Assembly: GCA_902168205.1 (NCBI GenBank)
Contig: CABHOK010000003.1
Location: forward strand, 124,001 to 188,000
DNA length: 64,000 bases
DNA from: an uncultured Chitinophaga sp.
GTDB lineage: Bacteria; Bacteroidota; Bacteroidia; Cytophagales; Cyclobacteriaceae
Direction: 5' to 3'
A model generated the notes under the pieces. That model was not told the origin of the DNA, ran no database searches, and saw nothing but the letters and a program-made list of their open reading frames with translations. Of this stretch, positions 49,056 through 64,000 are shown piece by piece (the first letter of the stretch is position 1; the number at the start of each line of letters is the position of its first letter). The translations under genes were made by a program, and so were the position numbers.

Positions 49056-49341
49056 AGAATTTAGCATACAGGGCTTGAATTTTTTTGAGCAGCCTCGTCA
49101 ATACCAATATCTAATCTTTGACGTTACGTGGTGGTGTAAATGTTTTTATGCCGGAGTCCTTTACGTGGTAAAAGCAATAGTATCAGCAACCGCTTGTCTC
49201 ATAACACGATTTGAATTTAGCAGGATATTGCTATTTTTAATAGCTGTGTGATGACGATGTTGAGATTGCACAGCCGAAAACAACCAGCCCTTTATGCCCA
49301 CGTCACAACGCTACCACTATGCTCATCGGGTAATCTTCCGG

Positions 49342-51507
49342 ATGAGACAATCGCGCTTCATCTTGTACTTTTTTATCACTATACTTCTGGCAGCCTGTTC
49401 AAAGCCGGATGCAAAATATAGTCGCTGGGAAGTTACCGGGGGAACGCGTGAAGGCATCCGGTATTCGTCACTTACGCAAATTGATACCACCAATGTCCAA
49501 CAATTGCAGGTTGCATGGACTTATCGTACAGGAGATGCCGATACGGTAAATCACTCGCAGATACAATGCAACCCGATCATTATTGATGATATACTCTATG
49601 CGACTACGCCTCAATTAAAACTGATCGCGCTGCACGCTGCTACCGGTAAAACGAAGTGGGTATTCGATCCGCGACAGCCGACATCGGATAACCGCGTGCT
49701 GGATTTTATACTTAACAACAATCGCGGTGTTACCTATTGGACAGATGGAAGTGCAGCTACTATATTTTATGTAGCCGGTTCAACGCTATATGCCGTAGAA
49801 GCAGCGACCGGAAAATTGAGTGAACCATTTGGTACAGGAGGTAAGATTGATTTGCATGATGGACTTGGTGAAGATGTTCACGATCTTTTTGTAACCGCTA
49901 CATCGCCCGGTGTCATTTATAAAGATCTGTTTATTATAGGATCACGCGTGTCGGAAGGACCTGATGCTGCTCCCGGGCACATTCGCGCCTATGATGTACG
50001 CACGGGTAAACAGAAGTGGACCTTTCATACCATTCCGCAGCCCGGTGAATATGGTTATGATACCTGGGAGAACCCCGATGCCTGGAAATTTACAGGTGGT
50101 GCCAATGCATGGGCAGGGTTCACATTGGATGAACAACGCGGTATACTCTTTGCGCCTACAGGCTCTGCATCTTTTGATTTTTACGGAGGCAATCGCAAAG
50201 GCAATAATCTGTTTGCAAATTGCATACTCGCACTCGATGCGGCTACCGGTAAACGCATCTGGCATTTTCAATATCTGCATCATGATATATGGGATCGCGA
50301 TATACCTACGCCACCGGCATTGGTAACAGTAATGCATGAAGGTAAAAAGATCGATGCAGTAGCACAGCCTACGAAGACCGGGTTCATCTATATATTCGAG
50401 CGGGAGACCGGAAAACCTTTGTTTGACATCAGGGAAGAACCTGTGCCACCTTCAACTATACCCGGAGAGAAGATATCGCCAACGCAACCCCTACCCGCCA
50501 AACCGGAGCCTTTTATGCGGCAATCCTTTACGGAAGCTGATCTGAATGATTTGTTGCCGGCAGCATCATTTGATACGATCCGCAAGCAGTTTCACGCCTA
50601 TCAAAAAGGACATATGTTTACTCCGCCTTCGCGGGAAGGAAGTATATTTTTCCCGGGCCTGGATGGTGGCGCAGAGTGGGGCGGACCTTCTGTTGATCCC
50701 GCTACCGGTATACTCTATGTGAACGCTAACGAAATTCCGTGGGTAATAACAATTGCCGATGTTGAAAAGAGTAATGCAACAAAAGAAACGTATGCTATTG
50801 CAGGCAAACGGCTATATTTGAATCACTGCAGCAGTTGCCACGGTGTTAATCGCGAAGGCGGTGGTAATTACCCGGCCCTCACCGGTATAAAAAGTAAGTA
50901 TACCACACCGCAGTTTACTGATTTGGTCGCTACGGGCAGACGGATGATGCCCGCCTTCAAACATTTATCGGAGCAGGAGCGAGAGGCTATAGCATCCTTT
51001 GTGCTGAATATAGAAATGCTTCAGAAGAAAGAATTTATACCGCAGGATTCATCGGTTGATCTGCGCGCGATACCATATCGTATTACCGGCTATAACAAAT
51101 TTGTGAGTAAAGAAGGATACCCCGCCATTAAACCACCGTGGGGAACATTGAATGCTGTTGATCTTAACTCCGGCAATATTGTGTGGCGTATTCCATTCGG
51201 GGAGCACCCGGAGTTTCCGCAGGCAACAGCGCCTACCGGAACAGAAAATTATGGTGGTCCTGTGGTAACAGCGGGAGGAGTTTTATTTATAGCAGCTACG
51301 CAGGATGGAAAATTCAGAGCTTTCAACAAACGTACCGGTAAGCTTTTGTGGGAGACAAGATTGCCTGTTCCCGGTTTTGCAACGCCTGCGGTATACGCTG
51401 TAAAGGGTAAGCAGTACGTGGTGATAGCCTGTGGCGGTGGAAAGCTGAAAACAAAGTCAGGCGATACATATATAGCTTTTGCCTTGCCGGAAGATCTTGC
51501 AAAATAG
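49342..51507 (+). CDS. PQQ-dependent dehydrogenase lipoprotein with cytochrome c domain
   Basis: A 721-residue quinoprotein. The start at 49342 (MRQSRFILYFFITILLAAC) makes a lipoprotein; 49294 only adds unlikely residues. The PQQ beta-propeller repeats (such as LIALHAATGKTKWVFDP and ILALDAATGKRIWHFQ) are interrupted near residue 505 by a cytochrome c domain with one heme site (HCSSCHGVN; Met ligand in RRMMPAFK). After that the propeller closes (LNSGNIVWRIPFGEHPE). It resembles membrane glucose-type dehydrogenases and would pass electrons to the respiratory chain. No PQQ synthesis genes are in the window. Confidence 0.9.
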   Translation: MRQSRFILYFFITILLAACSKPDAKYSRWEVTGGTREGIRYSSLTQIDTTNVQQLQVAWTYRTGDADTVNHSQIQCNPIIIDDILYATTPQLKLIALHAATGKTKWVFDPRQPTSDNRVLDFILNNNRGVTYWTDGSAATIFYVAGSTLYAVEAATGKLSEPFGTGGKIDLHDGLGEDVHDLFVTATSPGVIYKDLFIIGSRVSEGPDAAPGHIRAYDVRTGKQKWTFHTIPQPGEYGYDTWENPDAWKFTGGANAWAGFTLDEQRGILFAPTGSASFDFYGGNRKGNNLFANCILALDAATGKRIWHFQYLHHDIWDRDIPTPPALVTVMHEGKKIDAVAQPTKTGFIYIFERETGKPLFDIREEPVPPSTIPGEKISPTQPLPAKPEPFMRQSFTEADLNDLLPAASFDTIRKQFHAYQKGHMFTPPSREGSIFFPGLDGGAEWGGPSVDPATGILYVNANEIPWVITIADVEKSNATKETYAIAGKRLYLNHCSSCHGVNREGGGNYPALTGIKSKYTTPQFTDLVATGRRMMPAFKHLSEQEREAIASFVLNIEMLQKKEFIPQDSSVDLRAIPYRITGYNKFVSKEGYPAIKPPWGTLNAVDLNSGNIVWRIPFGEHPEFPQATAPTGTENYGGPVVTAGGVLFIAATQDGKFRAFNKRTGKLLWETRLPVPGFATPAVYAVKGKQYVVIACGGGKLKTKSGDTYIAFALPEDLAK

Positions 51508-51559: not shown

Positions 51560-51571
51560 TGATTTTTGTCA
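51560..51571 (+). promoter_or_regulatory. FNR/CRP-type box 1 (TGATTTTTGTCA), before the GAF/PAS gene
   Basis: The word sits in ACCTGATTTTTGTCATGT. It keeps TGA-N6-TCA, the core spacing of CRP/FNR operators, 128 bases before the start codon. It is one of four identical copies in the last 13 kb. Confidence 0.6.
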
Positions 51572-51699
51572 TGTTTTACAGGAGATAAGATTCCCACCTT
51601 GGCTTTCGAAAAAGGCTGTTGGAAATCCTGAACAACCCCACTGTGTAGAGACGGCCTGTTATTGTTGAATAACTATTCTCAATTCAGACTATATATACT

Positions 51700-53211
51700 A
51701 TGGAATCTTTTTCGAATACGTATAGTGGTACGTATAACTTTCTGTCACTCAATAATCATACGTTCAAATATCGAATGGCTTATCTCGGTGCATTTCTCGG
51801 GGTAACGCTTATCATCATCGCGATGGTGGTAGATCTGTTTGCCAAAGACCTGCCGTTTACTTTTGAAAGCGTAGATATTTTGTACACATCCAATCCCACG
51901 CACTGGATCATTCTCACATCTCCTTTTTTTCTTACCACACTGTTCTACGCCATGGGCAGAATGATAGGAGAACAGGAGTATAAAATCGAGCAGCAACTTC
52001 AGCGCGAGAAGGATCAGTTTAGTATGCTCGAGCAATTTATAGCTGAACTCGAAAATGGAAATTATACAGCTTCGGTGTCGCAGGAATTTGAAAACGCAAC
52101 GGTAGCAGGACAGCTCGAACACTTCCGTGACAAACTGTTGGAAGGAAAAAGTGCCGAAGAAAGAAGAGCCTGGGAGAACCAGGGGCTCGCTTCTTTCGGA
52201 GGTTTACTTCGCTCCGTCAGTGATATAGATAAATTATCGGATGACGCGATCCGGTATATCGTAAAATATTTATCCTGCAACCAGGGATCGGTCTATATCC
52301 TGAACGAGCATGATGCCGATACGCTGGATATGAAAGCCTGCTACGCATTTGATCGCAAGAAATTTGGTTCACAAACGATAGGTGTAGGACAGGGGCTTGT
52401 AGGGCAATGCTTCCTGGAGAAAGAGCCGGTTATACTATATGATGTCCCCAGGAACTATATTAAGATTACTTCCGGACTGGGCATGGCTACTCCGAGTTGT
52501 GTGGTTATTGTTCCGTTAAAGCATAACAACGAAGTAGCGGGTGTTATTGAAGTGGCATCATTTCACCGATTGGAGGAATACCACATTAAGTTTCTTGAAA
52601 AGGTGGCGGAAGCTTTCGCGTCTGTAGTACTGTCGGCACGCAGCAACCAGGATATAAAACGTCTGCTGGAAGAATCGCAGGTACACATGGAAGAACTGCG
52701 CTCACAGGAAGAAGAGATGCGTCAGAGTCTGGAAGAGTTGCAATCCGTACAAGAGCAAATGGTGCGACAACTGAGCGAAAACGTAAATATGAAAAACCAA
52801 TTGGAGGCTCGCGAAAAAGTACTTGGTCTTACGACAATATTATCGGAGTCTGATCTGTACGGCACTATCACGTTTGTGAACGACAGATTCTGCGAAGTGT
52901 CTCAATATAGTGCAGACGAGCTGATCGGGCAAGGGCATAACTTTGTGCGCCACCCGGATATGCCTGCTGAAATTTTCGCGCGCATGTGGAAGTTGCTTAA
53001 AAGAGGACAGCCGTTTCAGGGTATCATTAAAAACAGGAAGAAAGACGGGACACATTATTGGGTAGATGCTACCATTATGCCGGTAATTGAAAATGGAAAG
53101 ATTGTGAAATATATAGGGGCACGCTATCACATTAAAGATGATACGCATGCACAGCGATTATTTCTCCGTCAATTGAATACATTGGGGTTGCTTAGCCCAG
53201 CCGTTGTGTAA
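51700..53211 (+). CDS. Membrane GAF-PAS signalling protein without output domain
   Basis: A 503-residue protein. Two transmembrane helices (about 27-48 and 70-88) are followed by a coiled coil and a GAF domain (about 165-315, with SVYILNEHDAD and EVASFHRLEEYHI). Next is a long Glu/Gln coiled coil (about 318-375) and a PAS domain (about 378-490) close to the Aer/PAS_3 type (VNDRFCEVSQYSADELIGQ, RHPDMPAEIF). No kinase, cyclase or methyl-accepting output was found. It may transmit a signal to a partner protein. Confidence 0.88.
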   Translation: MESFSNTYSGTYNFLSLNNHTFKYRMAYLGAFLGVTLIIIAMVVDLFAKDLPFTFESVDILYTSNPTHWIILTSPFFLTTLFYAMGRMIGEQEYKIEQQLQREKDQFSMLEQFIAELENGNYTASVSQEFENATVAGQLEHFRDKLLEGKSAEERRAWENQGLASFGGLLRSVSDIDKLSDDAIRYIVKYLSCNQGSVYILNEHDADTLDMKACYAFDRKKFGSQTIGVGQGLVGQCFLEKEPVILYDVPRNYIKITSGLGMATPSCVVIVPLKHNNEVAGVIEVASFHRLEEYHIKFLEKVAEAFASVVLSARSNQDIKRLLEESQVHMEELRSQEEEMRQSLEELQSVQEQMVRQLSENVNMKNQLEAREKVLGLTTILSESDLYGTITFVNDRFCEVSQYSADELIGQGHNFVRHPDMPAEIFARMWKLLKRGQPFQGIIKNRKKDGTHYWVDATIMPVIENGKIVKYIGARYHIKDDTHAQRLFLRQLNTLGLLSPAVV

Positions 53212-53238
53212 CCGATAAAAAGCAGAATAAATAACAAT

Positions 53239-53270
53239 AAAGGGATATGCTTCGGTATATCCTTTTTTTG
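53239..53270 (+). terminator. Rho-independent terminator after the GAF/PAS gene
   Basis: The stem AAGGGATATGC/GTATATCCTTT has a TTCG tetraloop and a T run. Confidence 0.85.
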
Positions 53271-53346
53271 TTTAGAACCTGTTGAAATGAAATGTGGCGG
53301 TAGAGTTAAGAGCGTAAAAGAGGGGATGGGCGGGAGCTATGGTACT

Positions 53347-53748
53347 TTAAGGTATAACGAGTGTAGGCACGTGCACATGTTCCATTAACTCTTCAAATGT
53401 TTCTTTGGAGTTCGTGCTTACATTTTTATCAATCACCAGGAAATTAAGATTGTTCTTTTTTGCATGATCTTCAATACGATCTGAAACAAAGCCCACCTCC
53501 GTTCGGAAGTCATAACTTATTCCTTTGCCAATCAGCAAATCTTTTTCAATATCCTGAAATTGTTTGCTGGCTTCCTGTTCAATTCGTTTCTTGAGCTGCA
53601 CAATTTCACCGGATTGCGACTGGATGAGCCGGTAAGTATATAATATCGTAAGGTGTGCATCGAGCTGCTGCGCCATGGTTACAGCCCATTGCACCGCCTG
53701 CTTGGACGATTCCGGTAAATTAATAGTACACAGTATTGTTTTTGCCAT
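53347..53748 (-). CDS. Single-domain universal stress protein
   Basis: About 133 residues, starting MAKTILCTINLPESSKQAVQWA (53748); ATG 53760 is an alternative, while 53823 is unlikely. One USP fold is present with the usual strand-helix order, but the nucleotide loop GxxG is not clear (LNFLVIDKNVSTNSKETFEE), so ATP binding may be lost. It is divergent from the PAS kinase with an FNR-type box in between. A link to low-oxygen physiology is inferred. Confidence 0.82.
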   Translation of the reverse strand: MAKTILCTINLPESSKQAVQWAVTMAQQLDAHLTILYTYRLIQSQSGEIVQLKKRIEQEASKQFQDIEKDLLIGKGISYDFRTEVGFVSDRIEDHAKKNNLNFLVIDKNVSTNSKETFEELMEHVHVPTLVIP

Positions 53749-53832
53749 AACATCGGGCATTAAAGTCTCTTTCACGCTACAAACGTATAGGTATTTTAAA
53801 GCCAAAAACGCAATTTTGATCAACGTGAAATA

Positions 53833-53844
53833 TGATTTTTGTCA
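53833..53844 (+). promoter_or_regulatory. FNR/CRP-type box 2 between stress and kinase genes
   Basis: TGATTTTTGTCA in the 126-base divergent spacer. A promoter-like TAACTTTGC follows at 53860-53868. From there the box centre would lie about 35 bases before the start of transcription, a position used by activators of this family. Confidence 0.65.
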
Positions 53845-53859
53845 GGATTTGAACGAATA

Positions 53860-53868
53860 TAACTTTGC
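53860..53868 (+). promoter_or_regulatory. Promoter -7 element of the PAS kinase gene
   Basis: TAACTTTGC is a full match to TAnnTTTGC. It ends only six bases before the ATG, so the transcript would have almost no leader, or translation starts at the later ATG 53938. Confidence 0.45.
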
Positions 53869-53874
53869 AATTTT

Positions 53875-55122
53875 ATGGATGTGAGTGCTCCTTTATCTTT
53901 AGTGACGGACGATGCCTTTCGCGAGATCTTTCAAAGTATGTCGGAAGGTATCCTGATGGTTGATGAATCTGGTAAAATTGTTGTCGCCAATCCGATTGCC
54001 GAGCAGATTTTCGGATATGAAAAAAATGAATTGACCGGAGTTTCGCTTGAAAATTTACTCCCCGAACGATATCGCGGCAGACATATCAATTTCAGAAAAG
54101 GATTCAACGAACATCCCGAGCCTCGAAGAATGGGCTTTGGCCGAGACCTCACGGCACTTCGAAAAGACGGTGTAGAGTTTCCGGTGGAAATCAGTCTCAG
54201 CTATACCAAAGTGAAGGGTAAATTACTGGTGATGTCGTTCATCAGTGATATATCGCAGCGCAAGAAGGCAGAAGAAGCACTCAAGCGAAGTGAAGAGCAG
54301 CTTATTGTATATGCAGCCGAACTGGAAAAGAAAGTACAGTCGCGTACCGAAGCGCTGCACAAAACGATTCAAAAACTTGAGAATGAAATAACAGAACGCA
54401 AGCGTGCCGAAGAAGAAGCGCGAGGTGCCCTGGAGAAAGAACGTGAGCTCAATGAACTCAAAACAAAATTTGTGTCCATCGCTTCGCATGAGTTTCGTAC
54501 ACCGCTCAGTGCTGTGTTGAGTTCTGCTTCGCTCATCAACCAGTATAACGAGCGGGGTGAAAAAGATAAGGTAGATAAACATGTGCAGCGGATAAAGTCT
54601 TCGGTTAACCACCTGACATCTATCCTCAATGATTTTCTTTCACTTGGTAAACTGGAGGAAGGCGTTATTGATATCAATAAAGAACAACTGGTGTTGAAAG
54701 ACTTTATTGATAGTATAAATGAAGAGATGAGTCCGTTGCTGAAACAAGGTCAACGACTGGATATTGAATTTGCACCCGGAACAGAGGTATATGCTGATTC
54801 GCGCATACTCCGGAATATATTGTTCAATCTCATTACGAATGCCAGTAAATATTCGCCCGAGCACGAAACCATTCTGTTGAAATTTGAAAAACAAAATGGT
54901 GAACTTATTTTTAGTGTACAGGACGAAGGTATTGGTATACCCGATGAAGATCAGCGGCATTTATTCGAACGCTTTTTCAGAGCGAGCAATTCCGGAAATA
55001 TACAGGGTACCGGTCTGGGGTTGAATATAGTAAAGCGTTATGCTGAATTGTTGGGAGGTACTATTTCGTTTAAAAGCAGTTATGGAAAGGGTAGTACATT
55101 TACAGTAACGATACCGATATAA
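53875..55122 (+). CDS. Soluble PAS-domain histidine kinase
   Basis: A 415-residue cytoplasmic kinase without membrane helices. The PAS domain (about 12-128) has the FixL-like segment ENLLPERYRGRH to GFGRDLTALRKDGVEFPVEI. At the position of the FixL heme ligand His there is Arg (EPRRMGFGR), so heme binding is doubtful. A coiled coil follows (133-195). HisKA carries H205 (SIASHEFRTPLSAV) and the HATPase has NLITNASKYSP and GTGLGLNIVKRY. The next gene, 17 bases later, encodes its likely partner, the receiver-CRP fusion. Confidence 0.93.
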   Translation: MDVSAPLSLVTDDAFREIFQSMSEGILMVDESGKIVVANPIAEQIFGYEKNELTGVSLENLLPERYRGRHINFRKGFNEHPEPRRMGFGRDLTALRKDGVEFPVEISLSYTKVKGKLLVMSFISDISQRKKAEEALKRSEEQLIVYAAELEKKVQSRTEALHKTIQKLENEITERKRAEEEARGALEKERELNELKTKFVSIASHEFRTPLSAVLSSASLINQYNERGEKDKVDKHVQRIKSSVNHLTSILNDFLSLGKLEEGVIDINKEQLVLKDFIDSINEEMSPLLKQGQRLDIEFAPGTEVYADSRILRNILFNLITNASKYSPEHETILLKFEKQNGELIFSVQDEGIGIPDEDQRHLFERFFRASNSGNIQGTGLGLNIVKRYAELLGGTISFKSSYGKGSTFTVTIPI

Positions 55123-55139
55123 AAAAGTAATTTCAATCT

Positions 55140-56201
55140 ATGAAAAAGATACTCTTGATAGAAGACAACGCTGAGATCCGAGAGAATACCGGTGAGATAT
55201 TAAGCCTGGCCAATTATAGTGTGATTACAGCCGAGAATGGAAAGATTGGTGTTGAATTGGCACAACGCGAGCGCCCCGATCTGATCATCTGCGATATCAT
55301 GATGCCTGAACTGGATGGCTACGGTGTGCTGCATATTCTGAGTAAGAAAGAAGACACGGCCAGTATACCCTTTATATTTCTTACTGCTAAAACTGAAAAG
55401 ACCGATATACGGAAAGGAATGAATCTGGGGGCAGATGATTACCTGACCAAACCATTTGATGACACGGACCTGCTCAACGCTATTGAGACAAGGCTTCGCA
55501 AAAGCGCGATGCAGCAAAAGCATTATGAGTCTACACCGGAAGGTCTTGATAACTTCATTAAGGACGCACAAAAGTTTTTGAACCTGAAGGATCTTGGAAA
55601 AGACAAGAAAGTAAAGCAGTATAAAAAGAAAGCCGAGATATTTTCAGAAGGCGATATGCCTCTGCATGTATACTTTATCAAATCGGGGAATGTAAAAACA
55701 TTCAAGTCGCACCCCGATGGAAAAGAGTTTATAACAAACCTGTATGCAGCCAATGACTTCTTTGGCTTTGAACCGGTATTGGAGAACGAGAACTATAAAG
55801 AGTCTGCCGTAGCATTACAGGATTCTGAGTTGATCTCTGTTCCGCGTCATGATTTTATGTTGATGATTCAAAGTCACCCGGATGTATCCGCGAGCTTTAT
55901 CAATTTACTTTGCAAGAAAGTAGCCGAACGCGAGCGACAGCTTCTGAGTCTCGCCTATAATTCCGTGCGCCAGCGTACAGCCGATGCTTTGCTGAAGTCA
56001 GCTTCATTGAAAGATGATAAAGCTGTTATAGCTATTTCGCGCGAAGACCTCGCCAAGATGGTAGGCACAGCTTCTGAATCAGTGATCCGCGTGCTTTCAG
56101 ATTTTAAAGAAGAAGGAATTATAGAAATAGAAAGTGGCAAGATTAAAATCACACATCCTGCCAAGCTTGAAAAAGTAGTTCGCTGGAATGTAGCAAGGTA
56201 A
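55140..56201 (+). CDS. Response regulator with receiver, cyclic-nucleotide-binding-like and CRP-type HTH domains
   Basis: A 353-residue fusion. Receiver 1-122 has acidic D9, phospho-acceptor D52 (IICDIMMPELDG) and K104 (YLTKPF). A CRP/FNR sensor-like barrel (about 155-245) and a CRP-type helix-turn-helix (about 270-345) follow. The recognition helix TASESVIRVL keeps E313 and R317, the pair that reads the GA of TGA half-sites in CRP and FNR. There are no N-terminal Cys for an FNR-type cluster, so input should come from phosphorylation by the kinase upstream. It is a candidate regulator of the four TGATTTTTGTCA boxes. Confidence 0.92.
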   Translation: MKKILLIEDNAEIRENTGEILSLANYSVITAENGKIGVELAQRERPDLIICDIMMPELDGYGVLHILSKKEDTASIPFIFLTAKTEKTDIRKGMNLGADDYLTKPFDDTDLLNAIETRLRKSAMQQKHYESTPEGLDNFIKDAQKFLNLKDLGKDKKVKQYKKKAEIFSEGDMPLHVYFIKSGNVKTFKSHPDGKEFITNLYAANDFFGFEPVLENENYKESAVALQDSELISVPRHDFMLMIQSHPDVSASFINLLCKKVAERERQLLSLAYNSVRQRTADALLKSASLKDDKAVIAISREDLAKMVGTASESVIRVLSDFKEEGIIEIESGKIKITHPAKLEKVVRWNVAR

Positions 56202-56204
56202 CTG

Positions 56205-56257
56205 GCGCAAGTTTGAAAACTTGTGCCCGTAATATTTCAAGTTTTCAAACTTGAAAT
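56205..56257. repeat. Double palindrome between convergent genes
   Basis: GCGCAAGTTTGAAAACTTGTGC (56205-56226 region) and the 24-base palindrome at 56234-56257 each fold alone. Their cores CAAGTTTGAAAACTTG and CAAGTTTTCAAACTTG are reverse complements, so they can also form one 16-bp stem. It lies between convergent genes and probably ends transcription from both sides. Confidence 0.6.
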
Positions 56258-56288
56258 AACATGAATATTCTTTCTGCCAAAGTTATCG

Positions 56289-56981
56289 TTAACGACAAAT
56301 CGTAATCTCAGTAGCAACATCGTGAGTTGGCACACGATGCGAATCATGATCATGTCCTATAAACACCCGGGCAATCAATAAACATCCGGAAATGAATAGC
56401 ATAGTAGTAGTAACTTTTCGAAAGTTAAGGTTGAATCGCTTCACCATGTACTGAAATAAAGTAGTAAGTCCCAGCATAACCGGCAAAGTTCCTACACCAA
56501 ACAACAACATAAAGTAGAAACTATTGCCGATACTGCCGAGGGTTAAACAATACGTCAGTGCAAGAAAAGTAAGACCGCAGGGGAGAAGTCCATTTAAAGT
56601 CCCCAGTATAAAAATGGATATATAGTTCTTGCGTTGCAAAAATTTTCCAAAAGCTGATTTTAGTATAGTCGTTAGCTTTTGAATAGCGGAGGTCAGCACA
56701 GGAATGTGCACACTGGTTACACCTAACGCTGCGAAGGTCAGTAAAGCTATGCCCAGCACCAGCGTAAGTATATTTTGAAATCCAGAGATTGGTAATGCCC
56801 AGCCGGCACCTCCTACTATAGCGCCCAGTAAGCCATACGTTAATATTCTGCCGAGGTTATAAACCAAACGATTCACTGTTGCTGCGGGACTCAGGTTACT
56901 AACCGTCATGGCCAACGGACTGCACATACCTACGCAATGCATGCTGCCGGCAAACCCCATAACCAATGCAGTAATAATCAT
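56289..56981 (-). CDS. TauE/SafE-like (DsbD_2/UreH-type) membrane protein of the cbb3 cluster
   Basis: A 230-residue protein with about six membrane helices. The first has the HCVGMC motif (SMHCVGMCSPLAM) seen in this family, a possible copper or thiol site. NLGRILTYGLLGAIVGG and GLLPCGLTFLAL are further marks. Members sit at the end of ccoNOQP-ccoG-fixH clusters in Bacteroidota, so a role in copper supply or assembly of cbb3 oxidase is inferred. It ends in a His/Asp segment (GHDHDSHRV). Six bases separate it from fixH. Confidence 0.87.
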   Translation of the reverse strand: MIITALVMGFAGSMHCVGMCSPLAMTVSNLSPAATVNRLVYNLGRILTYGLLGAIVGGAGWALPISGFQNILTLVLGIALLTFAALGVTSVHIPVLTSAIQKLTTILKSAFGKFLQRKNYISIFILGTLNGLLPCGLTFLALTYCLTLGSIGNSFYFMLLFGVGTLPVMLGLTTLFQYMVKRFNLNFRKVTTTMLFISGCLLIARVFIGHDHDSHRVPTHDVATEITICR

Positions 56982-56987
56982 GACTTG

Positions 56988-57416
56988 TTAGATATAGATC
57001 ACTTCTTCCTGGTAAAATTCTTTGCCGTTCATTTTCCAGAACAGCTTGGCGCGATACATACCTTTTTGTAAAGAGTTAATATCAAATGTGCGCGTTGTCT
57101 CATTTGATGTGGTTACGGTAAATATGCGGTCCATCTTTGTATTGGAGGGACAGAATAGTTTCAACTCACCATTTTCAATTTTCTCAGACTGATTGAATTT
57201 TACCTGCAGCGTTTGGTTTACTACTTTAATTACCGGCTTCGCTGCCAGTGATGCAGTATTATTCAAGCGGTGTATCTGTTCCTGGTAGCCCAGTTCTTCT
57301 TTGTAATAGTCTTTAGATACCAGGCTTACATCCTGTCGTACGCAAACCGTAACCAGCGTTGCAATGAAAGTTGCAAACAGTATAAAAGCTACAACGATCC
57401 AATTCCCGAAATTCAT
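56988..57416 (-). CDS. fixH: FixH-family protein (cbb3 oxidase assembly)
   Basis: A 142-residue membrane-anchored protein. One helix (about 5-27) is followed by the family signature LVSKDYYKEELGYQEQIHRL, then a periplasmic beta domain with YRAKLFWKMNGKEFYQEE. FixH/CcoH is needed for a stable cbb3 oxidase in other bacteria. It lies 42 bases after ccoG in the same direction. Confidence 0.9.
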   Translation of the reverse strand: MNFGNWIVVAFILFATFIATLVTVCVRQDVSLVSKDYYKEELGYQEQIHRLNNTASLAAKPVIKVVNQTLQVKFNQSEKIENGELKLFCPSNTKMDRIFTVTTSNETTRTFDINSLQKGMYRAKLFWKMNGKEFYQEEVIYI

Positions 57417-57458
57417 ACGTTTTTAATTATAATTCTTTCTGATATATATAGTGCAGTG

Positions 57459-58946
57459 TTAATTGCGCTTGGCATCGGAGGCCTTGCTTACCGGTCCGAT
57501 GAATTTAGCCTTGACAGTTTCTATCCGGTTGCCATTTTGGTAAATACCCAGCTTTACCACCGTGCGTGCCGTAGTCACTGCTTCCTCCGGTATGCGAATG
57601 AAGTATACTCCTTTGGTAAAACCTTCGGACGGTATCACGATAGCTTTTCCATCTACCTTGTGAATCTGTGCCGATGCCGGTGATTCTACCTTAATCTCAA
57701 GCGTCATTTCATCAAATGTTTTATTTACAAACTCAACATTGTACAGGTTGGTTATAAAACCAGGTTCACGTTGGTATAGAGTGCCAGGGACTTTTAATAT
57801 AGTTGTCTCAACGTCTGACCGCGTAATAAGCGCAGCGCCCAGTATAATTACCAACGTTAAGAGTACGATCGAGTATGCTATAACTTTCCCTGTTATGATT
57901 TTTGAAATGCCATCCTTGATCGAGTTGTAAGACGCATAACGGATCAGTCCTTTCGGTTTGCCGATCTTCAGCATAACATCATCGCAGGCATCGATACAGG
58001 CTGTGCAGTTTACACACTCCATCTGGGTGCCGTTGCGTATGTCGATACCGGTAGGGCACACATGTACACAAAGTTTGCAGTCGATGCAGTCACCGGTGTT
58101 CACGGCAGGTTCAGCATTCTTTTTTAAATGACCGCGTGGTTCACCGCGCAGCCAGTCATACGCCACTACGATTGACTCTCTTGTTAGGAGAACACCTTGC
58201 AATCTTCCGTAAGGACACACCGCTATACATGCCTGTTCACGAAATTTGGCATATATACCATAGAAGATTGCCGTGAAGGCCATCAGACCTATGAACCCTG
58301 CTATATTTTCAGATGGCGATTCGCTTACGATAGCCTGTGTTTGTTCAATGCCAATCATGTACGCCATCACAGTATGCGCAATGAGTAGTGATATAGCCAG
58401 GAAGATAATATGCTTGGATGTCTTCTTGAAAATTTTGGAAGCTGTCCACGGTTCTTTATTTAATCTGCGCTGAGCAGTAGCATCGCCTTCGATCCAGTAT
58501 TCGATCTTGCGAAATACCATTTCCATGAATAACGTCTGCGGGCACATCCATCCGCACCATACACGACCAAACACAACGGTGAATAAAATGACGAATACAA
58601 AAAAGATAATCAGCACAACGGCCAGCAGGAAAAAATCCTGTGGCCAGAAGGCTTGTCCGAGTATAACAAATTTCCGTTCGAATATATTCAGCAGCAGGAA
58701 CGGTTGACCGCTGATCTTCAGGAACGGTCCGCCCAGCAGAATGGTAAGCAACACAACGGTAACGGCTATACGCCAGTTGTGATAGCGCCCCGATGGTTTT
58801 TTGGGATAGAGCCAGATTCGCTTACCTTTCTCATCAACGGTAGCGATGCTGTCGCGAAACTCTTCCTCGGCATCAATATCCTGGCGGGCAGCGGCACTCT
58901 TGGCCAGTCGCTCTTTCCTGATATCGATTTTTATACTCCCTTCCAT
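57459..58946 (-). CDS. ccoG: Cytochrome c oxidase accessory protein CcoG
   Basis: A 495-residue membrane protein with several helices (for example VVLLTILLGGPFLKISGQPF). An iron-sulfur part has CIDCKLCVHVCPTG and CVNCTACIDACD, giving two cubane-type sites. A C-terminal IgG-like periplasmic domain follows. CcoG handles copper, probably reducing Cu(II), for the active site of cbb3 oxidase. GRVWCGWMCPQT is the NapH-like motif. It follows ccoP by 60 bases. Confidence 0.95.
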   Translation of the reverse strand: MEGSIKIDIRKERLAKSAAARQDIDAEEEFRDSIATVDEKGKRIWLYPKKPSGRYHNWRIAVTVVLLTILLGGPFLKISGQPFLLLNIFERKFVILGQAFWPQDFFLLAVVLIIFFVFVILFTVVFGRVWCGWMCPQTLFMEMVFRKIEYWIEGDATAQRRLNKEPWTASKIFKKTSKHIIFLAISLLIAHTVMAYMIGIEQTQAIVSESPSENIAGFIGLMAFTAIFYGIYAKFREQACIAVCPYGRLQGVLLTRESIVVAYDWLRGEPRGHLKKNAEPAVNTGDCIDCKLCVHVCPTGIDIRNGTQMECVNCTACIDACDDVMLKIGKPKGLIRYASYNSIKDGISKIITGKVIAYSIVLLTLVIILGAALITRSDVETTILKVPGTLYQREPGFITNLYNVEFVNKTFDEMTLEIKVESPASAQIHKVDGKAIVIPSEGFTKGVYFIRIPEEAVTTARTVVKLGIYQNGNRIETVKAKFIGPVSKASDAKRN

Positions 58947-59006
58947 ACGCTTCTCAAAAAGAATTTCCTGTATACCTAAATTTCGTTCTGCTTTTGGTCG
59001 CTATAG

Positions 59007-59945
59007 CTATAGCGATGCCTGTGCATTTGTACTGTCAGACGCTGCGGTCGGAGCCGGTGCTGTTGCTTTAAATAATTCCCCCTGCGGAGCTTTGGCGTTG
59101 GCAGGATTGCTTCCCTGTAAGCTCATAATGAAGAAGGCTACATTTCGTACATCCTGCGGACTCATCGATTTTCCCCACGCTGGCATACCCTTTTCCACAA
59201 CGCCATTTTTGATGGTGCTGAAAACTTGTTTAACATCACCGCCATGCAGCCAGTACTCATCCGTAAGGTTCGGGCCGATTGTGTTTCCTCCACCATCGTT
59301 CCTGTGGCAGGCACCGCAGTTGTTACCGTTGAATACCGATTTTCCTTTTTCAATCAATGCCGGGTCGTTGGTAAATGCAAGTGCATTTTCATCGATCTCT
59401 TCCTGTAGTTGCGCTGCTTTCAGCTTCCGTGCCTGCTCTTCAGCCAGTGCCACCTCTTGTTGATACTCTTGATCCTGTAATGGAAGTGTATCGGAGAAGT
59501 GATATATAGCTATATATACCACCGAGAAAGCAATTGTTCCGTAGAAAAGCCACTTCCACCATGGCGGCAAATGGTTGTCGAGTTCTTTTATACCATCGTA
59601 ATCGTGATGAAGCTCGATATCTTTTTCAGCTTCCATTGGAACAGAGGCATTCATCTTCTGTGCAAACCTGTTCCATAGCGATGGCTTTACAACATAGGGT
59701 ATTCCGAGTTTGGCCGCTTTTGCTTTTTCGGTTTCCGTCATCAGCATGTTTACTACTTTTACCAGGTATAGCGCTACAACGCCTACGAGTATAATTACTA
59801 ATAGTATAAATGCTGTTACGAGGTATATCGGAAACATGGGATCGTTAACCGGATCGTCCCAGAAAGTTTTCGCTGCCTGCGCTTCCTGAGCGAAGGCGCT
59901 GGCGGTATAGATCATGAATACAATAAACAACACTGCTTTTCTCAT
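59007..59945 (-). CDS. ccoP: cbb3 oxidase subunit CcoP, mono-heme form
   Basis: A protein of 312 residues (start 59945, MRKAVLFIVFMIYTASAFA). After a signal or anchor helix and a second helix comes the FixP N-terminal module (HDYDGIKELDNHLPPWWKWL) with a third helix, then one cytochrome c domain (NNCGACHRNDGGG, Met ligand in GMPAWG). Proteobacterial CcoP has two hemes; only one CxxCH exists here. The tail is rich in Ala/Pro/Thr. It passes electrons to CcoNO. Confidence 0.92.
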   Translation of the reverse strand: MRKAVLFIVFMIYTASAFAQEAQAAKTFWDDPVNDPMFPIYLVTAFILLVIILVGVVALYLVKVVNMLMTETEKAKAAKLGIPYVVKPSLWNRFAQKMNASVPMEAEKDIELHHDYDGIKELDNHLPPWWKWLFYGTIAFSVVYIAIYHFSDTLPLQDQEYQQEVALAEEQARKLKAAQLQEEIDENALAFTNDPALIEKGKSVFNGNNCGACHRNDGGGNTIGPNLTDEYWLHGGDVKQVFSTIKNGVVEKGMPAWGKSMSPQDVRNVAFFIMSLQGSNPANAKAPQGELFKATAPAPTAASDSTNAQASL

Positions 59946-59949
59946 GGTC

Positions 59950-60144
59950 TTACTGTTTACGGTTTGTGTTTTCATTTTCAGAAGTTGCATCTTCCATGGG
60001 CAATGCCTTCATTTTGTCGATGATCTTTTTATCGGTAGTAAATACCCACAAGAGCAGGCAAAGGAAAAATGCGAAGAATATAACGAAGGAGATTACCGGC
60101 CAGATCGCGATGTTCTCTATACTTTGAAGGACGTTTTTATACAT
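59950..60144 (-). CDS. ccoQ: CcoQ-like small membrane subunit
   Basis: A 64-residue protein with one helix (WPVISFVIFFAFFLCLLLWVF) and a charged cytoplasmic tail, as in CcoQ/FixQ. It sits between ccoNO and ccoP, where this subunit belongs. It helps to stabilise the oxidase complex. Confidence 0.8.
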   Translation of the reverse strand: MYKNVLQSIENIAIWPVISFVIFFAFFLCLLLWVFTTDKKIIDKMKALPMEDATSENENTNRKQ

Positions 60145-60184
60145 GGCTTTACTGTTTTAGGTTGAACTTGTCAGTTCTCAATTT

Positions 60185-62314
60185 TTATTCTGACTGTGCT
60201 GTTTTCTCTGCTTTTATATCCGTACCCAGTCGTTGCAGGTAGGCGATCAGCGCGATGATCTCAGCATCTTCGGCTACTTCTATACCATCTGCTTTCAGTG
60301 TGCCTGCTATTTCACTGGCTTGTTTTTCGAGATCGTTGTTCGCATCGTTCTCATATCCTTCTTCATAAGGAACACCAATGGTACGAAGCGCTGTTATCTT
60401 GCCACGTGTGTCTCCCTTGTTGATCACCTGCTCGAACAACCACGGATACGCTGGCATGATAGAACCTGTTGAGACGGCATCCGGAGCAAGCATGTGATTG
60501 TAGTGCCAGCTGTTGGAATATTTAGCACCTACACGATGCAGATCCGGTCCGGTACGTTTTGATCCCCACAGGAACGGGTGATCGTATACGAATTCTCCTG
60601 CTTTGGAATATTCACCGTAACGTTCAGTTTCTGAGCGGAATGGACGAACCATTTGTGTATGGCAGTTCACGCAACCTTCGCGGATATATATATCACGACC
60701 GTGCAGCTCAAGCGGTGTATACGGTTTTACACTGGTGATGGTCGGTACATTAGACTTTATCAGGAATGTTGGTATCATTTCAATCGCACCACCAATGAGT
60801 ATAGCTACTATGGTTAACACGGTGAACAATACCGGCTTGTGTTCCAGCAGGCGATTGTGCCAGCCTCCGGTTTTCTGTACATATACTTTGGCAAGCGGTG
60901 CGGCTTCGGCATCTTCGTTCGCGAGGAAGCTTCCTGCGAAAGCTGTCTTCACCAGGTTATAGGTCATGATGATGGCACCGGTGAGATATAGGGCACCACC
61001 GATTGCGCGCAGTCCGTGCAGCGGCAGTATCTGTACCGTTGTCTCCAGGAAGTTTTTATATACCAGGAATCCTTCCGGGTTAAATTCTTTCCACATCAAA
61101 CTCTGCACAACACCGGATACATACATCGGCAGGGCATAGAAAATGATACCGAGTGTGCCTAGCCAGAAGTGTACGTTAGCAAGTTTGGTAGAGTATAATT
61201 TTGTGTTCCACATGCGTGGTGTTATCCAGTATAGCATGGCGAAGGTGAGGAAACCATTCCAGCCTAAACCACCTACGTGTACGTGTGCTACAATCCAATC
61301 GGTAAAGTGTGCTATAGCATTAACATTCTTGAGGGATAGCAGCGGACCTTCCAGTGTAGCCATACCATACGCAGTAATAGCGACTACCATGAATTTTAAA
61401 ACAGGATCTTCACGAACACGATCCCACGCACCACGGAGTGTCATCAGACCATTCAGCATACCTCCCCATGATGGGGCGATGAGCATGATGGAGAATACAG
61501 TTCCCAATGATTGTGCCCAGTCAGGCAGTGATGTATATAGTAAGTGGTGCGGACCTGCCCATATATAGATGAAGATCAATGACCAGAAGTGAATGATCGA
61601 CAAACGATAGGAGTATACCGGACGATTTGCGGCCTTCGGTAAGAAGTAATACATGAGACCGAGAAACGGAGTGGTAAGAAAGAATGCAACGGCATTGTGT
61701 CCATACCACCACTGCACCAATGCATCCTGCACACCGGCATACCAAGAGTAACTTTTGAAAAATGTTACCGGCATCTCGAATGAATTTACCACGTGCAGTA
61801 CCGCTACCGTTACAAACGTGGCGATGTAAAACCAGATAGCAACATACATGTGTCGCTCCCTGCGTTTGATGATGGTGCCGATCATGTTCCATCCGAACAC
61901 AACCCAGATGAGTGTGATCGCTATATCAATCGGCCACTCGAGCTCTGCATATTCTTTGGAAGTAGTCATACCCAGCGGCAGTGTGATCGCGGCCGCGAGA
62001 ATGATAAGTTGCCAGCCCCAGAAATGTATCCAGCTCAACTTGTCGCTGAACATGCGTGTCTTCAACAGGCGCTGCATTGAATAGTATACTCCGGCAAACA
62101 TGGCGTTGCCTACAAAGGCAAAGATGATGGCGTTGGTATGCAATGGACGAATGCGCCCGAAAGTTGTGTACTGCGTGTCGAAATTAAAGATCGGGTATAC
62201 CAACTGGATGGCCGCAGTAAGACCAACCAACATACCTACCAATCCAAACACGACCGTAGCGATCATGAACGCTTTTACGATCTTGTTGTCATAACTGAAT
62301 TTTTCTACTTCCAT
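60185..62314 (-). CDS. ccoNO: Fused cbb3 cytochrome oxidase subunits CcoN-CcoO
   Basis: A 709-residue fusion. Residues 1-about 480 are CcoN: heme ligand H59 (RIRPLHTNAIIF), WWYGHNAVAFFL, the copper ligands in WAGPHHLLY, and the two His of VAHVHVGGLGWNG. Residues about 500-709 are CcoO with a membrane helix and one heme c (EGCVNCHTQMVRPF; Met ligand in GSIMPAYPWLF). CcoN reduces oxygen with high affinity. The fusion is common in Bacteroidota. An FNR-type box lies 92 bases upstream, so it is likely induced at low oxygen. Confidence 0.96.
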   Translation of the reverse strand: MEVEKFSYDNKIVKAFMIATVVFGLVGMLVGLTAAIQLVYPIFNFDTQYTTFGRIRPLHTNAIIFAFVGNAMFAGVYYSMQRLLKTRMFSDKLSWIHFWGWQLIILAAAITLPLGMTTSKEYAELEWPIDIAITLIWVVFGWNMIGTIIKRRERHMYVAIWFYIATFVTVAVLHVVNSFEMPVTFFKSYSWYAGVQDALVQWWYGHNAVAFFLTTPFLGLMYYFLPKAANRPVYSYRLSIIHFWSLIFIYIWAGPHHLLYTSLPDWAQSLGTVFSIMLIAPSWGGMLNGLMTLRGAWDRVREDPVLKFMVVAITAYGMATLEGPLLSLKNVNAIAHFTDWIVAHVHVGGLGWNGFLTFAMLYWITPRMWNTKLYSTKLANVHFWLGTLGIIFYALPMYVSGVVQSLMWKEFNPEGFLVYKNFLETTVQILPLHGLRAIGGALYLTGAIIMTYNLVKTAFAGSFLANEDAEAAPLAKVYVQKTGGWHNRLLEHKPVLFTVLTIVAILIGGAIEMIPTFLIKSNVPTITSVKPYTPLELHGRDIYIREGCVNCHTQMVRPFRSETERYGEYSKAGEFVYDHPFLWGSKRTGPDLHRVGAKYSNSWHYNHMLAPDAVSTGSIMPAYPWLFEQVINKGDTRGKITALRTIGVPYEEGYENDANNDLEKQASEIAGTLKADGIEVAEDAEIIALIAYLQRLGTDIKAEKTAQSE

Positions 62315-62405
62315 AAACTTGCTCAGCGTTTTGTATCAAATATTCTTGGCAATAAAAGTAGAGGTGGTATGATGTATGGAAGATGACTGTTGTTATCAGG
62401 ATACC

Positions 62406-62417
62406 TGATTTTTGTCA
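62406..62417 (-). promoter_or_regulatory. FNR/CRP-type box 3 before ccoNO
   Basis: The word lies in CCTGATTTTTGTCAGG, with five-base arms CCTGA/TCAGG, the most symmetric of the four copies. It is placed between the hemN terminator and the ccoNO start. Confidence 0.68.
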
Positions 62418-62442
62418 GGATACACGCTGAAGGGTATATATG

Positions 62443-62472
62443 CAAAAAGACCCTCGCCAAAGAGCAAGGGTC
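62443..62472 (-). terminator. Rho-independent terminator of hemN
   Basis: The stem GACCCT/AGGGTC has a 12-base loop and, on the minus strand, TTTTTGC behind it. It separates hemN from ccoNO, so ccoNO needs its own promoter. Confidence 0.82.
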
Positions 62473-62499
62473 ATGCATTGTTTAGATTACTGAGTTATG

Positions 62500-63873
62500 T
62501 TATATCGCTTTGCTGAATATCACGCGGTTGTTGTCTTCTTCGTTCATCCGCTTGTCGAACACACGGCAGATATTTCGAATGAACGGTTCGCCTGCAGTTG
62601 TCACTTTAAGTCCTCCTTCTTCATAGAGAAAAAGTATTCCTTCTTTTTCCATTTCCGTTAACGTGTTGAGAATGTTGGCATCGACAACCTGCATCATTAA
62701 CTCGCGACTTAATTCACCCTGGCAGCTTATCTGCAGAATGCATTGTTTTACCAGCAGATCTTCATCGCTGTGAATGTGTCCTTTTACAATAGCCGATGCG
62801 TTGTGCTGAATAGCACCGAGGTATTCTTCTACTTTCTTTTCGTTCTGCGCATACGCGTATTTGGCATCACTGATAGCAGAAGCACCAAGACCAATCAGTA
62901 ACTCGGTGTTGGTAGTGGTATAGCCCATAAAATTGCGATGAAGCTTGCCGGAGACATACGCCTTGAAAAGGGAATCATGTCTCAGTGAAAAATGATCCAT
63001 ACCAACATCAGCATAGTCGGCTTTGCGAAGTAAATGTCTTCCTATTTCATACAGGTGTCTCTTCAGCGCGTGTGAAGGTAAATCGGATGTCTCATAATTA
63101 CGTTGTCCCGGTCTTAGCCACGGCACGTGTGCATAGCTATAGAATGAAATACGATCGGGTTTCAGTGTCAATACTTTCTCAATGGTATCGGAAACTGTAA
63201 ATGGAGTTTGAAAGGGAAGACCGTAAATAAGGTCGAAGCTTACGGATTCATAACCGATGACACGAGCCTGTTCGGTTACCTGCTGCAGGTTCTCAAAAGG
63301 TTGTATGCGGTGAATGGTGCGTTGTACTTTCTCATCCAGATCCTGTACACCAAAACTCACGCGGGTTGCACCGAGTTCGTGTAGTGTCTGCAGGTGTTCG
63401 TAGGTAGTGTTGTTCGGATGTCCTTCGAAGCTCATCTCGAAATCATTATGCAGCTCAACATCTTCGAGTAAGTACGAGATCATCCAGCGTAAATTCTGCG
63501 GACTGAAGAATGTAGGCGTTCCTCCGCCCAAATGTAATTCACGCACTACGGGCTTTTCACGAAATATATACTTGTAGTGATCCCACTCCTTCAGCAGTGC
63601 CTGTATATAGGGAATTTCGATCTTGTGATTTTTGGTAATGCGTGTGGAGCAGGCGCAATATGTGCAGAGGCTTTCGCAGAACGGCAAGTGTATATATATA
63701 CTGATTCCTTTTTCGGTATTGGTTTCGTGGAACGTTCTTCGCAGGGCTTTGGTCCATCTTTCGGTAGTGAAAGACTGCGTGTCCCAATAGGGAACGGTCG
63801 GGTAACTGGTATAACGTGGTGTTGGTACGTCATACTTCTTTAATAAGGCAGCTTGTGATGGATATGAAGTCAT
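62500..63873 (-). CDS. hemN: Oxygen-independent coproporphyrinogen III oxidase
   Basis: A 457-residue radical-SAM enzyme that makes protoporphyrinogen without oxygen, for heme supply. The cluster motif is C66-x3-C70-x2-C73 (LPFCESLCTYCACSTRITK). HLGGGTPTFFSP is the SAM-binding GGGTP region, and the C-terminal HemN domain is present (AYVSGKLHRNFMGYTT, as in true HemN, not the HemW type). Its place in the cbb3 cluster fits low-oxygen heme synthesis. A box of the proposed regulon lies 58 bases upstream. Confidence 0.94.
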   Translation of the reverse strand: MTSYPSQAALLKKYDVPTPRYTSYPTVPYWDTQSFTTERWTKALRRTFHETNTEKGISIYIHLPFCESLCTYCACSTRITKNHKIEIPYIQALLKEWDHYKYIFREKPVVRELHLGGGTPTFFSPQNLRWMISYLLEDVELHNDFEMSFEGHPNNTTYEHLQTLHELGATRVSFGVQDLDEKVQRTIHRIQPFENLQQVTEQARVIGYESVSFDLIYGLPFQTPFTVSDTIEKVLTLKPDRISFYSYAHVPWLRPGQRNYETSDLPSHALKRHLYEIGRHLLRKADYADVGMDHFSLRHDSLFKAYVSGKLHRNFMGYTTTNTELLIGLGASAISDAKYAYAQNEKKVEEYLGAIQHNASAIVKGHIHSDEDLLVKQCILQISCQGELSRELMMQVVDANILNTLTEMEKEGILFLYEEGGLKVTTAGEPFIRNICRVFDKRMNEEDNNRVIFSKAI

Positions 63874-63917
63874 GATTCAAAGTAGCTTCATCCATTAATT
63901 TTTATGAATGACCCGAA

Positions 63918-64000
63918 TCAAGCATGAACCTGATTTTTGTCAGTTTTCTCCGGAGAGCTTTTTTCAGGCAGCGCAGGTTTGTCATCAAACAGCATTCTAA
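63918..64000 (-). CDS. ccoS: cbb3 oxidase assembly protein CcoS, 3' end
   Basis: The last 27 codons of a gene entering from the right edge read RMLFDDKPALPEKSSPEKTD and end NQVHA. The R-x-LFDD motif is the typical end of CcoS, a small protein needed to put cofactors into cbb3 oxidase. Gene order (ccoS, hemN, ccoNO) supports it. Too short to be sure. Confidence 0.6.
   Translation of the reverse strand, partial: RMLFDDKPALPEKSSPEKTDKNQVHA
63931..63942 (-). promoter_or_regulatory. FNR/CRP-type box 4 before hemN, inside the ccoS end
   Basis: TGATTTTTGTCA within CCTGATTTTTGTCAG, 58 bases before the hemN start. It lies within the last codons of ccoS (T-D-K-N-Q), so it is partly coding. Confidence 0.55.

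Follow-up and report, generated by a model that had tools for sequence, protein, structure and literature searches.

A recurrent TGA-N6-TCA box with two promoter registers marks a candidate low-oxygen regulon beside a receiver–CRP fusion gene in an uncultured Chitinophaga sp.

One of the closest described counterparts of the system considered here is the FixL–FixJ–FixK cascade, where a PAS kinase acts through a receiver and an output of CRP type on sites ahead of the cbb3 oxidase, its assembly genes and hemN, possibly with autoregulation (PMC4999443); in alphaproteobacterial lineages without FixLJ–FixK, FnrN-type proteins are reported to act on the same kind of site (PMC4999443). For the Bacteroidota, reports on Flavobacterium psychrophilum place the sigma-A -7 box, TAnnTTTG, at -12 to -5 and report the cbb3 oxidase and heme synthesis as upregulated at low oxygen (PMC9723704). 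Here we describe a 12-base box that may be the operator of a comparable regulon in an uncultured Chitinophaga sp. (GTDB family Cyclobacteriaceae). The window, meaning the whole 64-kb stretch that was analyzed (C3:124001-188000, contig CABHOK010000003.1, of a 7.3 Mb genome), carries four exact copies of this box, together with a gene for a receiver–CRP fusion protein (the 55140 protein, named for its position) and, next to it, a PAS histidine kinase gene at 53875.

Several features of the FixL–FixJ–FixK cascade recur here: a kinase with a PAS that resembles that of FixL, a receiver, an output of CRP type, boxes ahead of genes for the cbb3 oxidase, for its assembly and for hemN, and possibly autoregulation. 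Unlike that cascade, however, the window system joins receiver, cNMP-binding domain and Crp-type helix–turn–helix (HTH) in one protein, so that the separate DNA-binding step of FixJ, a response regulator with a LuxR-type HTH, and the fixK gene are both absent. The operators also differ—TTGANCNNGATCAA for FixLJ–FixK (PMC4999443), TGACAAAAATCA here, often within CTGA-N6-TCAG—and the promoters considered here have the Bacteroidota TAnnTTTG element, often with tandem boxes 22 bases apart, and include universal stress genes as prominent targets. By analogy, the fusion and its kinase may work like FixLJ–FixK compressed into two proteins, while lying outside that family.

With FNR, ANR and FnrN the system shares the TGA-N6-TCA core and targets in low-oxygen respiration and hemN; FNR acts at a class II position of -41.5. 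In contrast to FNR, the 55140 protein begins with a receiver, lacks the FNR-type cysteine N-terminus and has no cysteines at the start of its CRP part. It resembles CRP in fold and HTH, judged by sequence, and in the pairing of a distal site with one at -41.5 (CRP promoters with tandem sites are termed class III), but activation would be expected to pass through the receiver domain, and cyclic AMP finds no support here. Within the phylum, HcpR and the Crp homologue of Porphyromonas are also CRP/FNR-family regulators, and HcpR is described as responsive to nitric oxide and heme, the excerpted descriptions making no mention of a receiver domain (PMC12750200, PMC12040651). The likeness to these proteins is one of family membership in the Bacteroidota.

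Just as the initial annotation had reported, the word TGATTTTTGTCA occurs exactly at 51560, 53833, 62406 and 63931 and at no other place in the window; all four copies are on the + strand. The annotation's expectation of about 0.008 copies at equal base frequencies also holds (0.0076), and 100 dinucleotide shuffles give 0.03, none of them reaching four. Judged by open reading frames, all four boxes are intergenic and stand where they had been placed: box 1 ends 129 bases before the start codon of a GAF/PAS gene, box 2 lies between a universal stress protein gene (usp) and the PAS kinase gene, and boxes 3 and 4 end 92 and 58 bases before ccoNO and hemN, respectively. Each has the TGA-N6-TCA spacing noted at the outset, which is the operator core of the CRP/FNR family, and a CRP-type HTH protein is encoded alongside. 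Across the 7.3 Mb genome there are eight exact copies, against three of the control word read backward; all eight are intergenic by open reading frames rather than scattered in coding sequence, and five fall within 16 kb (C3 175560-191533), the fifth just beyond the window. The flanks vary, with the full CCTGATTTTTGTCAGG present only at the ccoNO site and at C3 221845 among the exact sites, and this 16-mer with up to three mismatches matches the genome 111 times against 47 for the control. Among 195 relatives (own genome counted), allowing one mismatch gives 153 matches in 93 genomes against 29 control matches. Further loosening is less useful: two mismatches leave the window only weakly above chance (16 against 10.5 expected), and when 30 genome sites were read with their flanks the best six were intergenic and most of the remaining 24 lay inside genes, so that only near-exact or in-register boxes are informative. 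The canonical FNR site TTGATNNNNATCAA, tried at up to two mismatches, gave no signal in the window (58 matches against 49 expected).

The boxes before ccoNO, hemN and the pair formed by a second stress gene (usp2) and an ATPase gene in this genome are found in relatives as well. Orthologs were compared across 80 fusion-gene loci, some of them from close relatives, by seeking a TGAN6TCA box within two mismatches of the consensus variants, excluding genes with fewer than 150 bases upstream and using reversed sequences as controls. A box precedes ccoNO in 17 of 20 cases (reversed control 2), usp in 11 of 11 (0), hemN in 10 of 21 (0), ccoI in 5 of 8 (0) and the kinase gene in 29 of 76 (1). These loci (1.44 Mb) contain TGACAAAAATCA 26 times and its reversed form not once; the corresponding count of TGA-N6-TCA against its reversed form was set aside as an unfair control, the two words differing in kind.

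The position of the boxes relative to promoters is also constrained. When the window boxes are read as TGACAAAAATCA, a -7-like element follows 45-46 bases on in three of four (usp, ccoNO and hemN), and outside the window usp2 has TACTTTTG at 45 bases from its box. Four of the eight exact sites in the genome have such an element at 44-46 bases, a number reached in none of 20,000 mononucleotide shuffles, with the element defined after those sites had been seen. A search for box-N(30-60)-TAnnTTTG in 295 genomes of the family returned 62 matches in 51 genomes in the TGACAAAAATCA orientation (two of them from the own genome, both at gap 45; two pairs of rows, in G361 and G085, share one box), and the gap is 44-46 in 44 of these, where 6.0 would be expected (binomial 7e-31, with matches taken as independent), and exactly 45 in 32. 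At gaps of 5-35, the family yields 37 matches, with 22-24 bases in 18 against 3.6 expected. Both registers extend across the class: among 345 genomes searched at gaps 20-50, 76 matches were recovered, 30 at 22-24 and 31 at 44-46 (7.4 expected for each), and all 30 of the former and 27 of the latter come from outside the family, the 27 representing 21 families. The original proposal of a candidate low-oxygen regulon is supported by the genome-wide rarity of the box, by boxes before orthologs as compared with reversed controls, and by this fixed register in 21 other families of the class; what is added to it here is a putative promoter rule, of two registers about 22 bases apart with tandem boxes, and a probable FixL-like PAS in the kinase.

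The spacing of the two registers, of which the short one is spread over 22 to 24, recurs within single promoters. In 11 of the 62 family rows a second TGAN6TCA starts at an offset of exactly 22 bases from the first, every other offset occurring at most once there, and the same holds for 11 of the 76 class rows; a weaker second box, with at least five of six core letters, is found at +22 in 15 of the 31 class-wide rows with gap 44-46. Since roughly half of the far boxes are accompanied by a weaker box 22 bases downstream, the 12-mer would often be the upstream half of a tandem pair. At usp, ccoNO and hemN, the window promoters that can be read, it reads as the distal box of such a predicted pair, with a degenerate proximal box at +22. 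In nine aligned usp–kinase sequences, window included, the TGA of the box-2 proximal box (TCA on the + strand) is invariant, the set having been picked for the main box and being informative only for flanks and second half-site. Taking the published -12 to -5 for TAnnTTTG, box centers fall at about -63.5 (gap 44-46) and about -41.5 (gap 22-24); the latter matches the CRP/FNR class II position, at which the window holds only the degenerate proximal box. The simplest reading is that promoters of this type would be activated from a class II site at -41.5, which is often weak and in those cases backed by a strong box two helical turns upstream; a first guess of class I at -61.5 was replaced by these two positions once the gap-23 register emerged. 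At L134:1837-1870, two exact TGACAAAAATCA boxes lie 22 bases apart as a direct repeat, with TAATTTTG coming after them.

The candidate reader of the box has receiver, cNMP-binding and Crp HTH domains (HTH_Crp_2, E 6e-16), the cNMP_binding match alone saying nothing on ligand binding. The proteins closest to it are fusions with 98% identity from a bacterium carrying the label UBA5867, with 91% from both Ohtaekwangia koreensis and an uncultured Bacteroides-labelled bin, and with 82% from a Chryseolinea, which places the source of the window as an Ohtaekwangia-like member of the Cytophagales. The adjoining HisKA/HATPase kinase gene gives a two-component arrangement. The fusion and partner kinase named in the initial annotation are both real, and of 80 loci, many of them short, 78 have a kinase homologue on the same piece of DNA as the regulator and 23 have ccoNO there. 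The best Protein Data Bank matches of the kinase PAS are a histidine kinase (10jx), then FixL (E 4e-14), then DosP, and its His70 and Arg90 line up with what we take to be the heme ligand and the oxygen-sensing arginine of FixL; in the alignment of 79 kinases, 73 have His at the first of these positions. The kinase is probably FixL-like, with a heme-PAS, and linkage together with the recognition helix makes the 55140 protein a likely candidate binder of the box. The GAF/PAS protein downstream of box 1 has an Aer-type PAS, and Aer has a redox or oxygen link.

Beyond the window's own targets, the two family orientations together gave 53 register sites; leaving aside two own sites and one of G005, the genes downstream of the other 50 were examined. 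A usp or ccoI homologue follows 22 of the 50. At the others, where names come from sequence inspection alone, the genes include those for Rrf2-type regulators, a PEP carboxykinase, a PaaE-like reductase, a cytochrome c and a copper nitrite reductase; for many of them a link to oxygen is not apparent, and one box falls within a reading frame. When the box was loosened but kept in register, the seven genomes of the genus gave 23 matches against one control match, including sites before acetyl-CoA hydrolase/transferase-like and NnrS-like genes (again named by inspection). Sites with gap 44-46 lie within 25 kb of a fusion-type gene in at least 19 of 44 cases, compared with at least 1 of 18 for other gaps, counting fusion genes among the matches listed, a list that includes second-fusion types.

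The sequences show the boxes, their occurrence before orthologs, the two registers, the 22-base tandem arrangement, and regulator and kinase genes that are linked to each other and at some loci to cco genes; from these we infer a low-oxygen (microaerobic) regulon with CRP/FNR-type activator operators, and consider this reading probable at about two in three (0.66). The PAS kinase, probably through a FixL-like heme-PAS, would sense oxygen and signal to the receiver of the 55140 protein by phosphotransfer; the CRP part of that protein would bind the strong distal box at about -63.5 and, cooperatively, the weak proximal box 22 bases downstream at about -41.5, from where the proximal-bound protein would contact RNA polymerase in class II fashion, activating rather than repressing. 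Genes activated in this way would be usp, ccoNO and hemN and, a little beyond the end of the window, the second usp together with its ATPase of ccoI type; a gene for a cation ATPase may belong to them as well. The kinase gene itself may be treated differently: box 2 would be centered at about -33.5 as judged from a TAnnTTTG-type element of the kinase promoter, as if repressing its own regulator operon, and a box over the -33 region faintly suggests autorepression. The same arrangement is seen at L089-L091 and in near form at L100, and is not evident in the other fusion-gene loci that were compared.

A number of observations weigh against this reading, or against parts of it. No -7 element stands at 44-46 bases for the site at 51560 or for L010, L011 and L012, and the target of the 51560 box is uncertain as a result. 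The family search in the opposite orientation also returned 33 matches in 32 genomes, with gap 45 in 8 and 44-46 in 9 against 3.2 expected; because the register is seen in both readings of the box, and more in TGACAAAAATCA, the orientation is favored but not absolute. Many matches come from related genomes, and the P values therefore overstate independence. The arginine column of the kinase alignment is R in only 38 of 79, some of the aligned kinases looking like a different type; 28 of the 50 register sites do not precede a usp or ccoI homologue; and 25 of the 44 register sites are not near a fusion gene among the matches listed. The box may be a shared Bacteroidota CRP/FNR-family site that is used here mainly by another member, the 55140 protein having a lesser part or another one. 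Candidates in the genome are a stand-alone CRP (C12:95248), a nos-linked CRP (C12:56997) and a second receiver–CRP fusion (C2:468850). Apart from the 55140 protein, the CRP-type HTH is matched at E<=0.001 by seven proteins of the genome (five of them over the Pfam cut-off), and two of these share the segment GTAxE(S/T)xxR with the 55140 protein (GTASESVIR in the latter, GTATESLNR in the second fusion, GTAKETLVR in the C12 protein). An exact and a near box are found in the nos-like locus next to the nos-linked CRP, a gene different from the window fusion. Further, genus g82 is absent from the 198 genomes that have a fusion among the matches listed at E<=1e-30, yet three of its genomes have the box at gap 45, read as TGATTTTTGTCA, ahead of a ccoI homologue; the box is accordingly not exclusive to the fusion. 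All five g82 genomes examined, which include these three, carry instead a stand-alone CRP-type protein (L229-L233) that has a near-identical recognition helix (GTATESVIR), a CxxC and other conserved cysteines; this protein may be the counterpart of FNR in the Bacteroidota. On these grounds the box seems to be a code that is shared and not the signature of a single protein, and more than one kind of CRP-family protein may read it, for which evidence is added here to the initial annotation. As an account of this genome, however, predominant use by another member seems unlikely, though it deserves serious weight: the boxes cluster around the 55140 gene, register sites in relatives lie near fusion genes as often as given above, and the 19 kb around the second fusion hold a single divergent site, GGTGATTTTCATCACG.

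The boxes could also be repressor operators, or mainly class I upstream sites without a functional proximal box. The box at the kinase promoter, which would cover -33, and the degeneracy of the proximal box, with five or more core letters at +22 in only 15 of the 31 class-wide rows of gap 44-46, are in keeping with this; other promoters, however, hold a box at gap 22-24 and hence at -41.5, exactly the proximal-box position, and the conserved upstream position at -63.5 is hard to square with simple repression, so that we regard this explanation as quite improbable. That the four copies are due to chance, to a repeat element or to a common core-promoter element involving no regulator is hardly credible: the box does contain a run of T in its middle, and most imperfect genome matches that were examined do lie in genes, but the exact copies far exceed the shuffled expectation, are intergenic, precede orthologs and keep preferred registers, with reversed controls near zero. 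The ortholog and register tests speak strongly against it.

The activator reading may be part of a wider pattern. Tentatively, and at somewhat less than even odds, TGACAAAAATCA would be a class-wide operator code of the Bacteroidota, effective by itself at -41.5 or, when paired with a weak proximal box, at -63.5, whose reader has been swapped between lineages (a heme-PAS kinase with a fused FixJ–FixK-like protein in some, a stand-alone cysteine-bearing FNR-like protein in others) while the oxygen-response promoters were kept, paralleling the exchange between FnrN and FixLJ–FixK in Alphaproteobacteria. If the operator is as proposed, box, spacing and -7 element would together form a ready rule by which low-oxygen genes could be predicted across a class of ecological importance, and the system would be an example of an oxygen cascade of three proteins cut to two. 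A description of the operator was not found in the literature searched by box words and topic, a search that mostly did not extend to subscription journals and saw some topics listed in part.

Coordinates of the boxes, putative promoter elements and genes are collected in Table 1. The start of usp is probably at 53760, because the -7 element sits within the longer open reading frame. Loci L089-L091 carry TGATAAAAATCA at the place of box 1.

Table 1. Boxes, putative promoter elements and genes of the window, with exact box copies elsewhere in the genome
Feature	Position	Strand	Remarks
Box 1, TGACAAAAATCA on - strand	51560..51571	-	No -7 element at 44-46 register, either strand
Box 2, usp/PAS kinase divergent intergenic region	53833..53844	-	Putative distal box (~-63.5) for usp
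Degenerate proximal box TGATCAAAATTG	53811..53822	-	22 bases downstream of box 2 (~-41.5)
usp promoter -7 element TACGTTTG	53780..53787	-	45 bases past box 2
-7-like element TAACTTTG for kinase gene	53860..53867	+	15 bases past box 2 on + strand (box center ~-33.5)
Box 3, putative distal box before ccoNO	62406..62417	-	Full CCTGATTTTTGTCAGG on + strand
Degenerate proximal box TAACAACAGTCA before ccoNO	62384..62395	-	
ccoNO -7-like element TACTTTTA	62353..62360	-	45 bases past box 3
Box 4, putative distal box before hemN	63931..63942	-	
Proximal box TGATTCGGGTCA before hemN	63909..63920	-	
hemN -7-like element TACTTTG	63878..63884	-	One base short of TAnnTTTG; 46 bases past box 4
GAF + PAS protein	51700..53211	+	PAS matching aerotaxis receptor Aer (8dik, E 1.2e-34)
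Universal stress protein (usp)	53347..53760	-	
PAS histidine kinase	53875..55122	+	PAS resembling FixL/DosP heme-PAS
Receiver–CRP fusion response regulator	55140..56201	+	Candidate box binder
DsbD_2-type membrane protein	56289..56981	-	Downstream of cco genes
ccoG (fixG)	57459..58946	-	
ccoP, cbb3 subunit III-like	59007..59990	-	FixP_N in Pfam; under NCBIfam cut-off
ccoNO, fused cbb3 subunits I/II	60185..62314	-	
hemN, oxygen-independent coproporphyrinogen III oxidase	62500..63873	-	
Exact copy outside window	C3 191522		Between usp2 (then heavy-metal P-type ATPase of ccoI type) and beta-CASP metallo-hydrolase
Exact copy outside window	C3 221845		Between cation P-type ATPase and PAS protein
Exact copy outside window	C7 188524		
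Exact copy outside window	C12 59458		nos-like locus; nos names by inspection of reading frames

The ccoI name of the usp2-linked ATPase is based on a PF12156 domain and on its setting, the protein falling below the NCBIfam cut-offs for the copper and heavy-metal subfamilies. Near the C7 site, an early NrdD-like guess was dropped, Pfam giving a 5-fold beta-flower protein for the first gene there, with only a weak Mrr_cat match for the next gene. For the 597-aa gene behind the exact C12 box, neither Pfam nor NCBIfam gave a match at the thresholds that were applied; the surrounding nos-like locus (G000:C12:45000-64000, L220) has its own CRP-type gene, with a near box directly ahead of it, and a DUF542/hemerythrin protein by Pfam. 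The second receiver–CRP fusion (G000:C2:455000-474000, L218) is 50% identical to the window fusion and lies in an island with several universal-stress-like, Hsp20-like and sugar-kinase-like genes, as judged by inspection. Within the window (63873-63884), if TACTTTG is the hemN -7 element, transcription would start on the hemN start codon, giving a leaderless message. At the other end of the box cluster, a PQQ-type dehydrogenase gene with a fused cytochrome c domain (49294-51507) ends 53 bases ahead of box 1.

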